Shown here: positions 25,977 to 34,235 of the stretch, in pieces
Position numbering within the stretch: the first letter of the stretch is position 1
Layout: the number at the start of each line of letters is the position of its first letter
Assembly: GCF_000515395.1 (NCBI RefSeq)
Contig: NZ_KI911782.1
Span: 1,985,927-2,049,926 of the forward strand
DNA from: Jiangella gansuensis DSM 44835
Lineage (GTDB): Bacteria; Actinomycetota; Actinomycetes; Jiangellales; Jiangellaceae
DNA length: 64,000 nt
Direction: 5' to 3'
The notes under the pieces: generated by a model
Databases searched by the model: none
Seen by the model: the letters and a program-made list of their open reading frames with translations, nothing else
What the model was told of the DNA's origin: nothing
Made by a program: the position numbers and the translations under genes

Positions 25977-26795
25977 GTGACGGAGACGAATGGAACCCAG
26001 ACGGTGCCGGCCTCGGCTGTGCCGGGCCCGGCCGAGGGAATGCCCGCCGGAGGCCCGGTCACCCCGTCCGGCCGGCGGGTGCTGCTGAAGCTGTCCGGCG
26101 AGGTGTTCGGCGGCGGCGCGGTCGGTGTCGACCCCGAGGTCGTCAAGCGGATCGCCGGGCAGATCGCCGCTGTCGTCCAGGACGGCGTGCAGGTCGCCAT
26201 CGTCGTCGGCGGGGGCAACTTCTTCCGCGGCGCCGAACTACAGCACCACGGTATGGACCGCGCCCGCGGCGACTACATGGGCATGCTGGGCACGGTCATG
26301 AACTGCCTGGCCCTGCAGGACTTCCTCGAACACCGCGGCGTCGACACCCGGGTGCAGACGGCCATCACCATGGGCCAGGTGGCCGAGCCGTACATTCCGC
26401 GGCGGGCCGCGCGGCACCTGGAGAAGGGGCGCGTCGTCATCTTCGGCGCCGGCGCAGGCATGCCGTACTTCACCACCGACACCGTCGCAGCCCAGCGGGC
26501 GCTCGAGATCAGTTGTGATCGGCTCCTGATGGGCAAGAACGGCGTCGACGGTGTCTATGACGCCGACCCGCGGACCAACCCGCAGGCGCGCAAGTACCGG
26601 AGCATCACCTACGCCGACGTGCTGCGGCAGCGGCTGAACGTCGCCGACCCGGCCGCGTTCAGCTTGTGCATGGACAATCAGCTGCCCATCGTGGTCTTCG
26701 GGTTGGGCGAGGACAATGGCATCGCCCGGGCCATCCGGGGGGAGCGGATCGGTACCTTGGTCGCCTCGAACGTCGAGACCGTCGTCGAGGCCTGA
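25977..26795 (+). CDS. pyrH: UMP kinase
   Basis: PyrH phosphorylates UMP to UDP and belongs to the amino acid kinase fold. The 272-residue protein has [25 protein letters not shown], the [14 protein letters not shown] segment and the [16 protein letters not shown] segment. The first 30 or so residues are a low-complexity extension before the core. The GTG start has AGGAGG 8 nt upstream, so the extension appears to be translated. Confidence 0.96.
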
Positions 26796-28362: not shown

Positions 28363-29484
28363 ATGCCCAGACCCGGTGAGCTCACGCTCGTTCCCGCCCG
28401 CCGTGGCAAACCGCCGCGCCACCTTGCCGATCTCGACGTCCAGGGCCGCCGCCAGGCGGTCACTGAGCTGGGGGAGAAGCCCTTCCGGGCGGACCAGCTG
28501 TCGCGGCACTACTTCGCCCGGTTCGTGTCCGACCCGCAGCACATGACCGACGTTCCCGCCGGAGCGCGTGAGGCCCTGGCCGGACAGCTGTTGCCGACGC
28601 TGGCCACCCCGGTGCGGCACCTGGAGACCGACGCCGGCGACACCCGCAAGACGCTGTGGCGGCTGTTCGACGGCGCCTTGGTCGAGAGCGTGCTCATGCG
28701 CTACCGGGGGTCGCGCCCCCGGGTGACGCTGTGCGTGTCCAGCCAGGCCGGCTGTGGCATGAACTGTCCGTTCTGCGCGACCGGTCAACAGGGCCTCACT
28801 CGGAACATGTCGGCGGCCGAAATCGTCGAACAGGTCGTGGCGGCGGAACGGATGCTGGCGAACGGCGAGGTCGCCGGCGGCCCCGGCCGGGTGACCAACG
28901 TGGTCTTCATGGGCATGGGCGAGCCGCTGGCCAACTACAAGGCCGTGCTCACTGCGGTGCACCGGCTGGTCGAGCCGGCACCGGCGGGCCTCGGCATCGG
29001 CCGTCGCGGTGTCACCGTCTCCACCGTCGGCCTGGTGCCGGCCATCGACAAGCTGGCGGCCGAGGGCCTCGGCGTCACCCTGGCGCTGTCGCTGCACGCG
29101 CCCGACGACGAGCTGCGCGACGAGCTGGTGCCCATCAACACCCGCTGGAAGGTGGGCGAGGCCATCGACGCCGCGTACCGATATTTCCAGAAGACCGGCC
29201 GGCGCGTCTCCATCGAGTACGCTCTGATCCGCGACATCAACGACCACGCCTGGCGCGGCGACCTGCTGGGTAAGCTGCTCAATCAGCGTGGCCGGGGGTG
29301 GGTGCACGTGAACCCGATCCCGCTGAACCCCACACCCGGTTCGAAGTGGACCGCGTCGCGTCCGGAAGCGCAGGACGCGTTCGTGGCGGCACTGCAGGAC
29401 CGTGGGGTTCCGGTGACGATCCGGGATACCAGAGGTAGTGACATCGACGGGGCGTGTGGTCAGTTGGCTACCGTTGGCGATTAG
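28363..29484 (+). CDS. rlmN: Dual-specificity 23S rRNA A2503 / tRNA A37 C2-methyltransferase RlmN
   Basis: RlmN is a radical SAM enzyme that methylates C2 of A2503 in 23S rRNA and A37 in some tRNAs. The 373-residue protein has the CxxxCxxC cluster in [12 protein letters not shown], the downstream [11 protein letters not shown] motif, and the methyl-carrying Cys in the late [17 protein letters not shown] element lies 10 nt upstream of the ATG, so the gene may have its own, nearly leaderless promoter. Confidence 0.95.
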
Positions 29485-29618
29485 TATGCATTGCGCTTGG
29501 CTCGGCCGGTCTCGGGGGATATCGGCGTCCTGGCGACAGAGTTGGCTGGACTCGTCGTCGCCTGGACTCCGCCGCCCGGAGGCCGGCCGTTTGCTGTTCG
29601 GGAGGAGAGTGACACCTG

Positions 29619-30722
29619 GTGGCCGTCAGTCGCGAGCCTGAGTTCCGCACCACCCGTATGCGTGAGGGATATGACCTGGATGCGGTCGACGACTTCGTCG
29701 ATGTGGTGATCGACGCCTTGGAGGGTCGGCCCGCTGGCCGTTCGGTGACTCCGGAGCAGATCGAAGCCGAGGAGTTCAAGGTCGTCCGCATGCGTGAGGG
29801 TTACGTCATGGACGACGTCGACGACTGGCTCGATGCCGCCGCCGCCGAGCTGCGACGGCAGCGCAAGGCCGCGCAGGCGTCGCAGCAGGTCTCGGCCCAG
29901 GCGTACAACCCGCAGACCACGACCATGGGCACCGCGCCGGTCGGTCCGCCGCCCGCCGCGCAACCACCGGTCGCGCAACCACCGGTTGCACCGCCGCCGG
30001 TCGCGCCCCCGGTGCTGCCGCCGCCGGCCGGGTACGCGGCCGCGCCGAGCGCACCGGCCGGCCCGGGCGGTCCCGGGCCGACGGCGCCGAACCCTACGTA
30101 CCCCGCGTACTACGAGACGTCCCACGGGACCACGCACGGCTCCACCGCGAACTACGACACCCAGGCGTACGACCCGCTCACCGATTCCGCGGTGAACGAG
30201 CTCGACCCGGTGTTGCGGGCGCTGGACCCCTCATTCGGCGCGTCGCAGGAGCAGTACGCACACACGCCGGTGCCCCGCACGCCGGAGCCGGCCGTCGACG
30301 ACGCCTCGCTGGCCCCGTCGACCACGCCGTCCACCGGGCTGCACCACGTCGAGATCTGGGTGCGCGACCTCGACTCCGCCACTCGCTCCTTCGGGTGGCT
30401 GTTCGAGCGGCTGGGGTGGACCCTGTTCCAGGCATGGGAGAACGGCCGCTCCTGGCAGGCGCCGGGCGGCGGGCCGTACGTGGTGCTGGAGTGCTCCCCG
30501 GACCTCAGCTGGGTGGCCTACGACCGCAAGGCTCCCGGCCTGAACCATCTAGCGCTGGCGGTGCCGGAGCAGTGGATGGTCGACCGCATCGTCTCCGAGG
30601 CGCCGGCCTACGGCTGGCGGCTCATGTTCGCCGACCGGCACCCGCACGCCGGCGGGCCGCATCACTACGCGGCCTACATGGAGAACGAGGACGGCTTCGA
30701 GGTCGAGGTCGTCGCGCCCTGA
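29619..30722 (+). CDS. DivIVA-motif / VOC-domain fusion protein
   Basis: The 367-residue protein has two short DivI1A-type motifs (EFRTTRMREGYDLDAVDDFV at 8-27 and EFKVVRMREGYVMDDVDDWL at 52-71). Next come a Pro/Ala-rich region (about 105-160) and a low-complexity spacer. From about residue 240 there is a glyoxalase/bleomycin-resistance (VOC) domain, LHHVEIWVRDLDSA to FEVEVVAP, with His and Glu residues at the usual metal positions (HHVEI, LNHLALAV, FEVEV). DivIVA motifs normally mark septum- or pole-associated scaffolds. A DivIVA-motif gene after rlmN is normal in actinobacteria, but the VOC tail is unusual to my knowledge. GTG 29619 has GGAGGAG 11 nt upstream. Confidence 0.85.
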   Translation: MAVSREPEFRTTRMREGYDLDAVDDFVDVVIDALEGRPAGRSVTPEQIEAEEFKVVRMREGYVMDDVDDWLDAAAAELRRQRKAAQASQQVSAQAYNPQTTTMGTAPVGPPPAAQPPVAQPPVAPPPVAPPVLPPPAGYAAAPSAPAGPGGPGPTAPNPTYPAYYETSHGTTHGSTANYDTQAYDPLTDSAVNELDPVLRALDPSFGASQEQYAHTPVPRTPEPAVDDASLAPSTTPSTGLHHVEIWVRDLDSATRSFGWLFERLGWTLFQAWENGRSWQAPGGGPYVVLECSPDLSWVAYDRKAPGLNHLALAVPEQWMVDRIVSEAPAYGWRLMFADRHPHAGGPHHYAAYMENEDGFEVEVVAP

Positions 30723-30745: not shown

Positions 30746-31483
30746 TCACCGGCCGAGGTAGGCGCCGCCGTTGACGTGCAGCACCTGGCCGGTGACGTGC
30801 CCGGCGCCCGATGAGGCCAGGTATCGCACCGCGGCCGTGACGTCGTCGGTGGTGCCTTCGCGCTTGGTCATCGTGGCGTCCACCAGCCGTTGCCGCCTGG
30901 CCTCGGTGAGCCTGCCGCGGAAGAACTCGGTGCCCGCGGTCAGTCCCGGTGCCACCACGTTGGCGGTGATGCCCCGTGGCCCGACCTCAGCCGCCAGCGA
31001 CGCCGTCCACGTCTCGACGGCGGCCTTGGCGGCGCCGTAGTCGCCTGCACCCTGCCTGGCGGCGATGGACCCGATGGTGATGACGCGCCCGCCGGACGGC
31101 ATCCGTGGCAGCAGGCCCGTGGTCACGAGCACCGCCGTGAGCACGTTCGCCTCGAAGTTCGCCCCCCACAGTGCCGCCAGGGCGGCAAGGTCGCCCGGCG
31201 CCGGTGTCGGCAGGTCGAAACCGGTGTTGCCGCCGGCCGCGTTGACCAGAACGTCCACGGTGGGTGGCAGCGTGTCCAGGGCCGCCGTGACCGCGGCCGG
31301 GTCGGAGGCGTCGAAGTCCACGGCGCGCACGCCGGCGGAGCCCAGCGAGGCGACGGCGTCGTCGAGCACCTCGCGGCGCCGCCCGGTGATGACGACGGTG
31401 TCGCCATCGGCCGCGAACGACGCCGCGACGGCCCGCCCGATGCCGGTGCCGCCGCCGGTGACCACGATCGTGCGTCCAGTCAT
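30746..31483 (-). CDS. Short-chain dehydrogenase/reductase (SDR)
   Basis: The 245-residue protein is a classical SDR. It has the cofactor motif TGGGTGIG near the N-terminus, NAAGG, a catalytic Ser in ITIGSIAA, and YxxxK in GDYGAAKAAVE. It ends with the LHVNGGAYLGR segment common in 3-oxoacyl-ACP-reductase-like members. The presence of an Arg after the first strand (ITGRRRE) suggests NADP(H). The substrate is unknown. It is divergent from a marR-type gene and shares a palindromic operator with it. Its AAAGGAG ribosome-binding site lies inside that palindrome. Confidence 0.9.
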   Translation of the reverse strand: MTGRTIVVTGGGTGIGRAVAASFAADGDTVVITGRRREVLDDAVASLGSAGVRAVDFDASDPAAVTAALDTLPPTVDVLVNAAGGNTGFDLPTPAPGDLAALAALWGANFEANVLTAVLVTTGLLPRMPSGGRVITIGSIAARQGAGDYGAAKAAVETWTASLAAEVGPRGITANVVAPGLTAGTEFFRGRLTEARRQRLVDATMTKREGTTDDVTAAVRYLASSGAGHVTGQVLHVNGGAYLGR

Positions 31484-31534: not shown

Positions 31535-32107
31535 ATGAGCGGCCAGGCCAGCGACGACGGTGCCGACCGCATCCAGGCTGCCTGGCGGCGCGAGTTGCCC
31601 GGCGTGCCGGTCGGCTCCATTGGCGTCATCACCCGGATCTGGCGCCTCGGGCAGCTGCTGGCCGAGGACCGCCGCCGCACGCTGGAGCGGCTGGGCATCG
31701 ACAACCCCACCCTCGACCTGCTCAGCACGCTGCGTCGCGGCGGCCCGCCGTACCGGCTCACCGCGGGTGAGATCGCCGCCAACAGCTTCGTCACGCCCGG
31801 CGCGGTGTCGCAGCGGGTGGCCCGGGCCGAGGCCGCCGGGCTGGTGCGGCGTGAGCGCTCCGGCCAGGGTGGACGTCACGGCCACGACGGCCGCACGGTC
31901 GTCGTCGCGCTCACCGACGCGGGACGGGAGCTGAACGAGCGCGTCGTCACCGAGCTGCTGCGGCACGAGGAGACGTTGCTGGACGGGCTCGGCGACGCCG
32001 AGCGCGAGACCTTGGCCGGGCTGCTGAAGACGATGCTGGGCCAGCTGACCGAACGGTTCGGTGCGCAGGACCGGCCGCCGCCCGCCGGCGGCAACCCGTT
32101 ACGGTAG
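31535..32107 (+). CDS. MarR-family transcriptional regulator
   Basis: The 190-residue protein has the MarR winged-helix core. RLTAGEIAANSFVTPGAVSQRVARAEAAGLVRR gives the helix-turn-helix in pieces (LTAGEIAANS, GAVSQRVARA), followed by a GRTVVVALTDAGREL wing. Helical dimerisation ends flank it. It most likely represses the divergent SDR gene and itself through the palindrome upstream. The ATG is followed seven bases after its stop by the next gene, so read-through into the peptidase cluster is possible. Confidence 0.88.
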   Translation: MSGQASDDGADRIQAAWRRELPGVPVGSIGVITRIWRLGQLLAEDRRRTLERLGIDNPTLDLLSTLRRGGPPYRLTAGEIAANSFVTPGAVSQRVARAEAAGLVRRERSGQGGRHGHDGRTVVVALTDAGRELNERVVTELLRHEETLLDGLGDAERETLAGLLKTMLGQLTERFGAQDRPPPAGGNPLR

Positions 32108-32113
32108 CCCGCT

Positions 32114-32950
32114 ATGAAGGTGCTCATCTCGGCCGATATGGAAGGCGCCACCGGCGTCACCTGGCCGGCGGACGTCGAGCCGGGAACCGAGCAGTGGCAG
32201 CGCTGCCGGTCGATGTTCACGTCCGACGTCAACGGTGCCATCGCCGGGTTGTTCGACGGCGGAGCCGACGAGGTCCTCGTCAACGAGGCCCACGCCACCA
32301 TGCGCAACCTGCTGCTCGAGCAGCTGGACGAGCGCGCCACCATGATCACCGGCCGGCACAAGGCGCTGACCATGGTCGAGGGCCTGCAGGCCGGCGACGT
32401 CGACGGCGTCGTCTTCCTCGGGTACCACGCCGGTGCCGGAGCCGAAGGCGTCCTCGCCCACACGTACCTGCCCAACTCCATCACCGGTGTCTGGGTTGAC
32501 GGCGAACCGGCGAGCGAGGGCCGCCTCAACGCCTTCGTCGCCGCGGAGTACGGCACGCCGGTCGTCCTGGTCACCGGCGACGACAAGGCCTGCGTCGACG
32601 CCGCCACCTACGCGCCGCACGCCCGCACCGTCGCCGTCAAGGACTACGTCTCCCGCTACGCCGCCCGCTGCCGCCCACCGGCGCGGACGTTCGGCGACAT
32701 CCGAGCCGAGGCGAAGGCCGCCGCGGCGCTCGCGGTCCGGTCCGCACCCCGTACCCGGACGGAGTCGTACACCGTCGAGGTTGAGGTCGACGCCACCCAG
32801 CTGGCGGACTTCGCCGGCATGGTTCCGACGGTGGAGCGGGTGGCCGAGCGCCGGGTCCGCTACGTCGTACTCACCGCGTACGAGATGATCCGCTGTTTCA
32901 AGGCCGTGACCACCCTCATCTCCAACGGCATCGAGAAGAACTATGGCTGA
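32114..32950 (+). CDS. M55-family D-aminopeptidase (DppA-like)
   Basis: The 278-residue protein starts with the M55 signature VLISADMEGATGV, whose Asp and Glu bind zinc. It also has NEAHATMRN and FLGYHAGAG with the other ligands. DppA from Bacillus removes N-terminal D-amino acids such as D-Ala from short peptides, a murein-peptide salvage step. TACGGT 8 nt before the ATG resembles a -10 for a leaderless message. Its stop overlaps the next gene by 8 nt. Confidence 0.92.
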   Translation: MKVLISADMEGATGVTWPADVEPGTEQWQRCRSMFTSDVNGAIAGLFDGGADEVLVNEAHATMRNLLLEQLDERATMITGRHKALTMVEGLQAGDVDGVVFLGYHAGAGAEGVLAHTYLPNSITGVWVDGEPASEGRLNAFVAAEYGTPVVLVTGDDKACVDAATYAPHARTVAVKDYVSRYAARCRPPARTFGDIRAEAKAAAALAVRSAPRTRTESYTVEVEVDATQLADFAGMVPTVERVAERRVRYVVLTAYEMIRCFKAVTTLISNGIEKNYG

Positions 32951-34235
32951 GCCGGACGTCGTCACCCTCACCTCCGACCTCATCCGCATCGACACCACGA
33001 ACCCCGGCGACGGCACCGGCCGGGAGCTGCCGGCCGCCGAGTACGTCGCCGAGAAGCTCGCCGATGTGGGCGTCGACGCCGACGTCCTGGTGTCCGCGCC
33101 GAACCGGGCGAACGTCGTCGCCCGCATCCCCGGCACCGAGCCGGACCTTCCGGGGCTGCTGGTGCACGGCCACCTGGACGTCGTCCCGGCCGAGGCGGCC
33201 GACTGGTCGGTCCCGCCGTTCTCCGGCGAGGTCCGCGACGGCGTCGTCTGGGGCCGCGGCGCCGTGGACATGAAGGGCATGGACGCGATGATGCTCGCCG
33301 TCGTCCGGGCCTGGATGCGTGAGGGACGGCGGCCGCGCCGCGACGTCGTGCTGGCGTTCACCGCCGACGAGGAAGGCAGCGCCCGGCACGGCTCGGGCTG
33401 GCTCGCTGCCGAGCACCCGGAGCTGTTCGAGGGGTGCACCGAAGGCATCAGCGAGTCCGGCGGCTACACATTCCATGTGGGCGACCAGCGGTTGTATCCC
33501 GTCGCCGCCGGCGAACGCGGCACCGCCTGGATGAAGCTGACCGCCACCGGCCGGGCCGGGCACGGGTCGAAGGTCAACGCCGAGAACGCCGTCGCCGCCC
33601 TGGCCGGCGCCATGCACCGGCTGTACGAATACGAGTGGCCGGTCCGGCTGACCCCGACCGTCCAGGCGTCGGTCGAGGCGATCGGGGCTGCCCTCGGTGT
33701 CCCGGTCGATCTGACCGACCTGGACGGGACCGTCGCGAAGTTCGGGGAGGCCCGCGCGCTGGTCGAGGCGGTGCTGCGCAACAGCACGAACCCGACCATG
33801 CTCAACGCCGGCTACAAGGTCAACGTCATCCCGGAGACCGCCGTCGGCATGGTCGACGGCCGGATCGTGCCCGGCGCCCGCGACGAGTTCGAAGCCACCG
33901 TCGCCGAGCTCGTCGGGCCGGACGTGCGGTGGGAGTACGAGCACGCCGAGATCCCGCTGTCCGCGGACCCGGCCTCGCCGACCTTCGCGGCGATGGCGGC
34001 GGCGCTGACCGCCGAAGACCCGGGCGGGCACGTCGTCCCGATGTGCATGGCCGGCGGCACCGACGCCAAACAGTTCTCGCGGCTGGGCATCGTCGGTTAC
34101 GGCTTCGCTCCGCTGCGGATGCCGCCGGATCTCGACTACGGTGCCTTGTTCCACGGTGTCGACGAGCGGGTGCCCGTCGACGCGCTGGAGTTCGGTACCC
34201 GCGTACTCGACCGTTTCCTCACCACCGTCGGCTGA
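32943..34235 (+). CDS. M20-family metallopeptidase
   Basis: The 430-residue protein has the M20 di-zinc pattern: HGHLDVVPA, GRGAVDMKG, TADEEGSARHG and the late LFHGVDERV. A dimerisation domain is inserted around AGRAGHGSKVN. It would hydrolyse dipeptides or acyl-amino acids; the exact substrate is open (the ArgE/DapE/carboxypeptidase group). The start ATG lies inside the end of the DppA-like gene, so the two are coupled. Confidence 0.92.
   Translation: MAEPDVVTLTSDLIRIDTTNPGDGTGRELPAAEYVAEKLADVGVDADVLVSAPNRANVVARIPGTEPDLPGLLVHGHLDVVPAEAADWSVPPFSGEVRDGVVWGRGAVDMKGMDAMMLAVVRAWMREGRRPRRDVVLAFTADEEGSARHGSGWLAAEHPELFEGCTEGISESGGYTFHVGDQRLYPVAAGERGTAWMKLTATGRAGHGSKVNAENAVAALAGAMHRLYEYEWPVRLTPTVQASVEAIGAALGVPVDLTDLDGTVAKFGEARALVEAVLRNSTNPTMLNAGYKVNVIPETAVGMVDGRIVPGARDEFEATVAELVGPDVRWEYEHAEIPLSADPASPTFAAMAAALTAEDPGGHVVPMCMAGGTDAKQFSRLGIVGYGFAPLRMPPDLDYGALFHGVDERVPVDALEFGTRVLDRFLTTVG

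Follow-up and report, generated by a model that had tools for sequence, protein, structure and literature searches.

The fusion gene and its surroundings

The gene described here lies in a genome held on a single contig of 5,585,780 bases, within the window (the whole stretch of DNA that was analysed, 64,000 nucleotides of Jiangella gansuensis DSM 44835). It begins 134 nt downstream of rlmN and runs as one frame from a GTG start to a TGA stop, with no internal stops (29619-30722), through a tandem pair of DivIVA-like (DivI1A) motifs, a Pro/Ala-rich linker and a VOC domain. The features of the locus are as follows.

25977..26795, + strand: pyrH-like gene (PF00696, 115 bits), which we take to encode UMP kinase
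28363..29484, + strand: rlmN, the upstream neighbour (PF04055, PF21016; TIGR00048 in its own genome)
29601..29607, + strand: ribosome-binding-like GGAGGAG before the GTG start, read from the sequence
29619..30722, + strand: fusion gene (PolyDIV-type DivIVA-like pair, linker and VOC domain), 367 aa
29640..29720, + strand: DivIVA-like (DivI1A) motif 1 (TIGR03544, 25.3 bits, cut-off 22)
29745..29852, + strand: DivIVA-like (DivI1A) motif 2 (TIGR03544, 33.1 bits, cut-off 22)
29871..30173, + strand: Pro/Ala-rich linker, residues 85-185, 25% Pro, variable in length and sequence
30174..30233, + strand: short conserved element PLTDSAVNELDPVLRALDPS in the linker, residues 186-205 (dN/dS 0.13)
30330..30719, + strand: VOC domain, residues 238-367 (PF13669; 3ct8)
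30345..30347, + strand: His243, presumed metal ligand, invariant in 43/43 rows
30546..30548, + strand: His310, presumed metal ligand, invariant in 43/43 rows
30705..30707, + strand: Glu363, presumed metal ligand, invariant in 43/43 rows
30746-31480, - strand: SDR gene, beside the fusion
31535-32107, + strand: MarR gene, beside the fusion
32114-32950, + strand: Peptidase_M55 (D-aminopeptidase) gene, beside the fusion
32943-34235, + strand: Peptidase_M20 gene, beside the fusion

Over the whole protein TIGR03544 totals 46.4 bits (cut-off 22) in two stretches that lie within the first 85 residues, and Pfam Glyoxalase_4 (PF13669) aligns residues 242-353 with profile positions 1-109 of 109 (43.2 bits, cut-off 27). 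The earlier note had described two DivI1A motifs, a Pro-rich linker and a complete VOC domain in one uninterrupted frame, a description that TIGR03544, PF13669 and the 25% proline content of the linker bear out. The length of the frame alone is no evidence, because a second frame in the same GC-rich stretch is also open, for 311 codons. A promoter and terminator scan detected nothing.

The fusion is maintained as one protein across family f1

The fusion is intact as a single frame in 20 of the 22 genomes of family f1 (Jiangella and its kin, soil actinobacteria; the genome analysed here and 21 more). In G002 its two halves lie at the ends of two contigs, and in G013, which is 81% complete, the fusion has no match anywhere in the genome and no DivIVA-like frame lies within 1.5 kb of rlmN. 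Ten loci from named records represent, at least in part, genomes already counted here and add no independent evidence. Linker length ranges from 118 to 224 residues over the 20 complete copies, and the frame is never broken; judged from the sequences, this conservation in 20/22 genomes puts the fusion beyond chance.

A missed stop between the halves, one of two flaws that the earlier note had considered, is found in none of the 20 complete copies, and on the strength of these copies the reading of a missed stop or frameshift was rejected. The other, that the VOC half is translated by itself from an internal start, could draw on the in-frame GTG, ATG and TTG codons in the linker, on a GTG (the Val of DPV) in the linker element that, by our reading of the alignment, 12 of 20 copies share, and on the GGAG that precedes the last GTG in one copy (L022); chance long frames are moreover common at this GC content. 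Against an artefact of either kind stand the stop-free frame in 20 complete copies, the scatter of the in-frame start nearest upstream of the VOC half (-47 to 0 codons, varying by copy, with no start common to all 20) and the AGGAG upstream of the first GTG in every one of these copies, and we regard it as extremely improbable.

Both ends of the protein are constrained

Nei-Gojobori mean dN/dS values over the 20 complete copies are 0.05 for motif 1, 0.12 for motif 2 and 0.12 for the VOC domain, as against 0.59 for the linker and 0.76 for its tail. Among the 11 Jiangella genomes the VOC domain is the most constrained region of all (dN/dS 0.045). These ratios indicate that both ends of the protein are under strong purifying selection and that the linker is not. 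Within the linker, the element PLTDSAVNELDPVLRALDPS has a value of 0.13 and is found in 19 of the 20 complete copies, being missing from L022. A derivation of this element from a decayed DivIVA-like motif is not claimed, as the best BLAST E-value against 8 proteins was 0.014 with the composition correction off.

The N-terminal half resembles a two-copy PolyDIV

According to Martinez-Goikoetxea and Lupas (2023, PMC9858780), PolyDIV proteins are widespread in Actinobacteria. These actinobacterial proteins are reported to carry 2 to 8 tandem DivIVA-like domains, most of them four, which are modelled as pairing within one chain; most of their clusters lie near a UMP kinase gene, and a role in cell division is proposed by the authors without experiment (PMC9858780). 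The N-terminal half of the fusion fits this group and looks, by its motifs, like a two-copy PolyDIV and not like a classical DivIVA. At least two DivIVA-like motifs per chain define the group, and the fusion has two, at 25.3 and 33.1 bits with TIGR03544; the domain number is even, with the motifs at 29640-29720 and 29745-29852 paired through a short connector, and the PF00696 gene at 25977-26795 places a presumed UMP kinase gene nearby.

The profile for DivIVA domain repeat proteins (TIGR03543) gives the fusion 24.3 bits against a cut-off of 154.2, and only over positions 3-79 of 178, and that for DivIVA/Wag31 proper (NF050102) gives it 9.4 bits against a cut-off of 260. The same genome encodes a separate Wag31-like protein, which reaches 151 bits with NF050102 and is itself below the cut-off of 260. 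The scaffold proposed in the earlier note on the basis of its DivIVA motifs thus stands in that a DivIVA-like module is present; the module is PolyDIV-like, in two copies, and at 9.4 bits with NF050102 is not a classical DivIVA. An AlphaFold model of the full-length protein, built on 9 close sequences, is weak (mean pLDDT 44.7).

Elsewhere in the genome, a 160-aa frame at L138 (G000:C1:1361014-1361109, + strand) has one DivIVA-like motif (TIGR03544, 34.5 bits) after a hydrophobic stretch, and no Pfam match. It is possibly a small membrane-anchored DivIVA-like protein.

The VOC half keeps a putative metal site

The nearest solved chain to the VOC half is 3ct8, a 'Putative glyoxalase' presumably from Bacillus halodurans, which matches residues 241-367 at E 9.8e-22 and is matched end to end by the subfamily profile at E 2.1e-36. 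Of the VOC subfamily, 8/8 members match PF13669 above its cut-off. Our alignment comprises 38 chosen columns and 43 rows (21 from family f1 and 22 free), of which 37 rows are different and some identical; the partial VOC matches of G198 and G260 were left out of both the tree and the 43 rows. Eleven of the 38 columns are invariant (H242, H243, D250, R303, G307, N309, H310, P342, A344, A351 and E363). Three of these residues, H243, H310 and E363, we take to be metal ligands by analogy with VOC enzymes, and their invariance in 43/43 rows, fused and free, supports the plausible metal ligands that had been noticed in this domain. E291, considered as a fourth ligand, was dropped since it is kept in just 37 of 43 rows.

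The 6 NCBIfam matches at E≤1 include neither glyoxalase I (TIGR00068) nor methylmalonyl-CoA epimerase (TIGR03081), and both assignments were rejected. An AlphaFold model of the VOC half is weak (mean pLDDT 62.5, built on 9 close sequences), with an order of strands and helices that fits the paired beta-alpha-beta-beta-beta fold of VOC proteins. A Foldseek search with this weak model gave no match at E≤0.001; its top rows (spermine synthase and others) were disregarded as the model is too weak, and no VOC entry was recognised among the best 50 rows.

The subfamily occurs in 40 of 296 genomes of the class at E≤1e-20, 21 of the 40 belonging to family f1, and in 9 of 246 genomes of the phylum at E≤1e-15. 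Each of the 21 fusion-bearing genomes has a single copy of it (E≤1e-20), so that none holds a free copy that could take the place of the fused domain. When the whole protein was searched against plasmids, 30 records matched, and in all 8 that were listed the match is to the VOC half. Free relatives are found on large plasmids or plasmid-like records of Streptomyces and Nonomuraea (e.g. L143, L144 and L145), which suggests an accessory, mobile function; three of their Streptomyces plasmid neighbourhoods, out of the 30 records, held nothing that explains their function. A Streptomyces-like genome of family f19 (G059, L130) has methyltransferase-like and Nudix-like parts and the same VOC domain in one open frame (897-2399), with NCBIfam scores that are below their cut-offs.

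Gene order around the fusion

Upstream of the fusion, the order pyrH-frr-cdsA-rlmN is found in 8/8 loci that reach that far. On the other side, the 8 loci long enough to show it keep the order SDR, MarR, Peptidase_M55, Peptidase_M20, with the fusion and SDR about 2.3 kb apart in L039. The earlier note had held that actinobacteria usually carry a DivIVA-motif gene after rlmN, and this is overstated: such a gene follows rlmN in 8 of 41 non-family stretches and in 4 of 24 sampled families (f9, f28, f37 and f44). The survey covered 39 stretches chosen from part of the 286 rlmN-matching genomes, together with G053 and G029 (making 41 non-family stretches) and also G013. It used a home-made profile with seeds partly from its own hits and examined up to 3 kb downstream, families f23 and f41 being covered by stretches under 1.1 kb only.

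Two loci of family f37 (L096 in G111 and L103 in G202) encode, next to rlmN, DivIVA-repeat proteins in which a very long Pro/Gly-rich linker separates two motif pairs; the G111 protein has a run of MPERD/MLERD-like repeats. In the fusion's own genome, the - strand at about 1717457-1718776 of G000:C1 (L141) encodes a coiled-coil protein resembling FilP, with a DivIVA-like motif that is weak (18.5 bits, below the cut-off). Its gene lies head to head with one for methylmalonyl-CoA epimerase, a VOC enzyme (about 1719096-1719488, + strand, L142), and the same epimerase neighbourhood is reported for Scy/FilP (PMC9858780). That a DivIVA-like gene lies beside a VOC gene twice in this genome is perhaps coincidence.

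The fusion probably joined neighbours of one operon

A counterpart to the fusion as separate genes is present in G053, a member of family f9 in another order. Here rlmN is followed on the same strand, and in the same order, by a DivIVA-repeat gene with four motifs (109 bits to TIGR03543) and then by a VOC gene; the start of the repeat gene overlaps the rlmN stop by 4 nt and the VOC gene lies 11 nt further on. Because the parts lie in this order in G053 as closely packed single genes, the fusion probably arose by the joining of the adjacent PolyDIV and VOC genes of an rlmN-PolyDIV-VOC operon. The joining of the last two genes of such an operon is the simplest explanation, though short of proof. 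A DivIVA-like gene lies near the VOC gene in 1 of the 22 distinct non-family neighbourhoods scanned (28 loci, six of them repeats), namely in G053, and we estimate that chance would give 0.004 such placements in 22 trials at about 3000 genes per genome. The neighbourhood in G211 holds one chance-level DivIVA-like match (E 0.84).

Against an origin from an operon, the rlmN-PolyDIV-VOC order is known from G053 alone, and a VOC of this kind is missing from the other 7 genomes of its order. Only after omission of a long branch (L136) does the G053 VOC group as sister to the fused VOCs, with support of 71/71; it gets no resolved place in the tree with all rows, and a grouping of the fused VOCs with that of G202 instead is not rejected (p-AU 0.364). 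Its identity is 65% to the free VOC of G144 versus 58% to the one in the window. The pair of motifs in the fusion is most similar to the second of the pairs in the G029 repeat protein (44% over 66 residues), and this similarity is a hint only.

A proposed docked metalloenzyme and its alternatives

The reading we prefer, and to which we give an even chance, is that the protein is a VOC metalloenzyme docked through a scaffold-type module. In such a model the DivIVA-like pair would fold on itself into a small docking head, and this head would bind a partner (the membrane, Wag31 or another scaffold) at the poles or septum. The disordered linker would serve as a tether, and the VOC domain would pair with another copy, bind a divalent metal and act there on a small metabolite. 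We favour this model because the frame is intact in 20/22 genomes, both ends are constrained and the triad is invariant in 43/43 rows; polar or septal tethering of the fusion, which the earlier note had proposed for the growth zone, is plausible. Against it count the family member G013, which lives without the fusion gene, the free VOC relatives, which show no link to division genes, and the weakness of both AlphaFold models (mean pLDDT 44.7 and 62.5).

The main rival is that the protein is a metabolite sensor, in which the VOC domain would bind a small molecule without important turnover and its ligand occupancy would alter how the DivIVA-like head assembles or binds partners, making growth or division responsive to metabolism. 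Enzyme folds are reported to serve actinobacterial morphogenesis elsewhere, as with Glp, a repurposed molybdotransferase that acts with GlpR and Wag31 in Corynebacterium glutamicum (PMC10522489), and OtsA, described as an osmotic sensor in actinobacterial morphogenesis (PMC5685639). The stability of the fusion would also fit a read-out between its two parts. The long and variable linker (118-224 residues), however, speaks against rigid allosteric coupling, and the presumed metal triad is invariant, as an enzyme needs; a sensor could keep the triad too, so that on this point the sequence is undecisive. We hold a sensor to be possible, if on the unlikely side.

A broader version is a metabolite-responsive polarity hub in one chain: at the growth zone the VOC metalloenzyme would sense or clear a reactive metabolite, which the DivIVA-like pair would report to the division or elongation machinery. 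We put this forward tentatively and consider it unlikely.

Neutral joining, finally, would mean that operon neighbours became one frame, that the halves work independently and that the fusion only fixes their ratio. The separate genes of G053, in their order, and the very variable linker are what such an event would leave; the fused state, however, persists in 20 complete copies, no renewed split was observed, and the conservation of a 20-residue linker element (dN/dS 0.13) goes beyond the need of an indifferent spacer. This explanation appears quite improbable to us.

Significance and comparison with known systems

In the collection of papers searched, our literature search found no account of a VOC or glyoxalase domain joined to a DivIVA-like domain, nor of DivIVA in Jiangella genomes; for a DivIVA domain-containing protein together with glyoxalase it returned a Streptococcus suis methyltransferase study only. 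The sole extra folded domain reported on PolyDIV proteins is a Ser/Thr kinase, and the main text of that report mentions neither VOC, glyoxalase nor Jiangella (PMC9858780). As predicted from its domains, the fusion is a PolyDIV whose folded partner domain is of a second type, beside the reported Ser/Thr kinase (PMC9858780). Should the polarity-hub reading be true, the VOC domain would bring the kinds of folded domain known on a PolyDIV to two and provide the first small-molecule enzyme among them. A fusion found across a family, with a separate-gene counterpart in another order, amounts to a Rosetta-stone link, and the VOC substrate or the docking partner, once found, would give the PolyDIV group its first function. 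The fusion adds to the few cases of enzyme folds wired into actinobacterial division and polar growth and could help reveal the role of tandem scaffold proteins.

Glp/GlpR resembles the proposed system in that an enzyme fold works with the Wag31 system (PMC10522489). It differs in that Glp, as described there, has another fold, is not fused to a DivIVA-like domain and is linked to Wag31 via GlpR (PMC10522489). 3ct8 and the free actinobacterial VOC relatives belong to the same subfamily end to end and have the same His/His/Glu set, but are free-standing proteins. With DivIVA/Wag31 the fusion shares the DivIVA-like motif; classical DivIVA has one domain and a long dimerising coiled coil, whereas the fusion has two motifs and no long coiled coil. 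TIGR03543 partly overlaps the PolyDIV group, and the rlmN-adjacent repeat proteins of families f9, f28 and f37 match most of it at 71-117 bits, all below its cut-off of 154.2. The closest likeness in the DivIVA-like half is to PolyDIV itself, with which the fusion shares the tandem DivIVA-like pair, an actinobacterial host and the UMP kinase neighbourhood. It departs from the PolyDIV proteins described so far, most of which have four domains, in having one pair only and, at its C-terminus, a VOC domain (PMC9858780).
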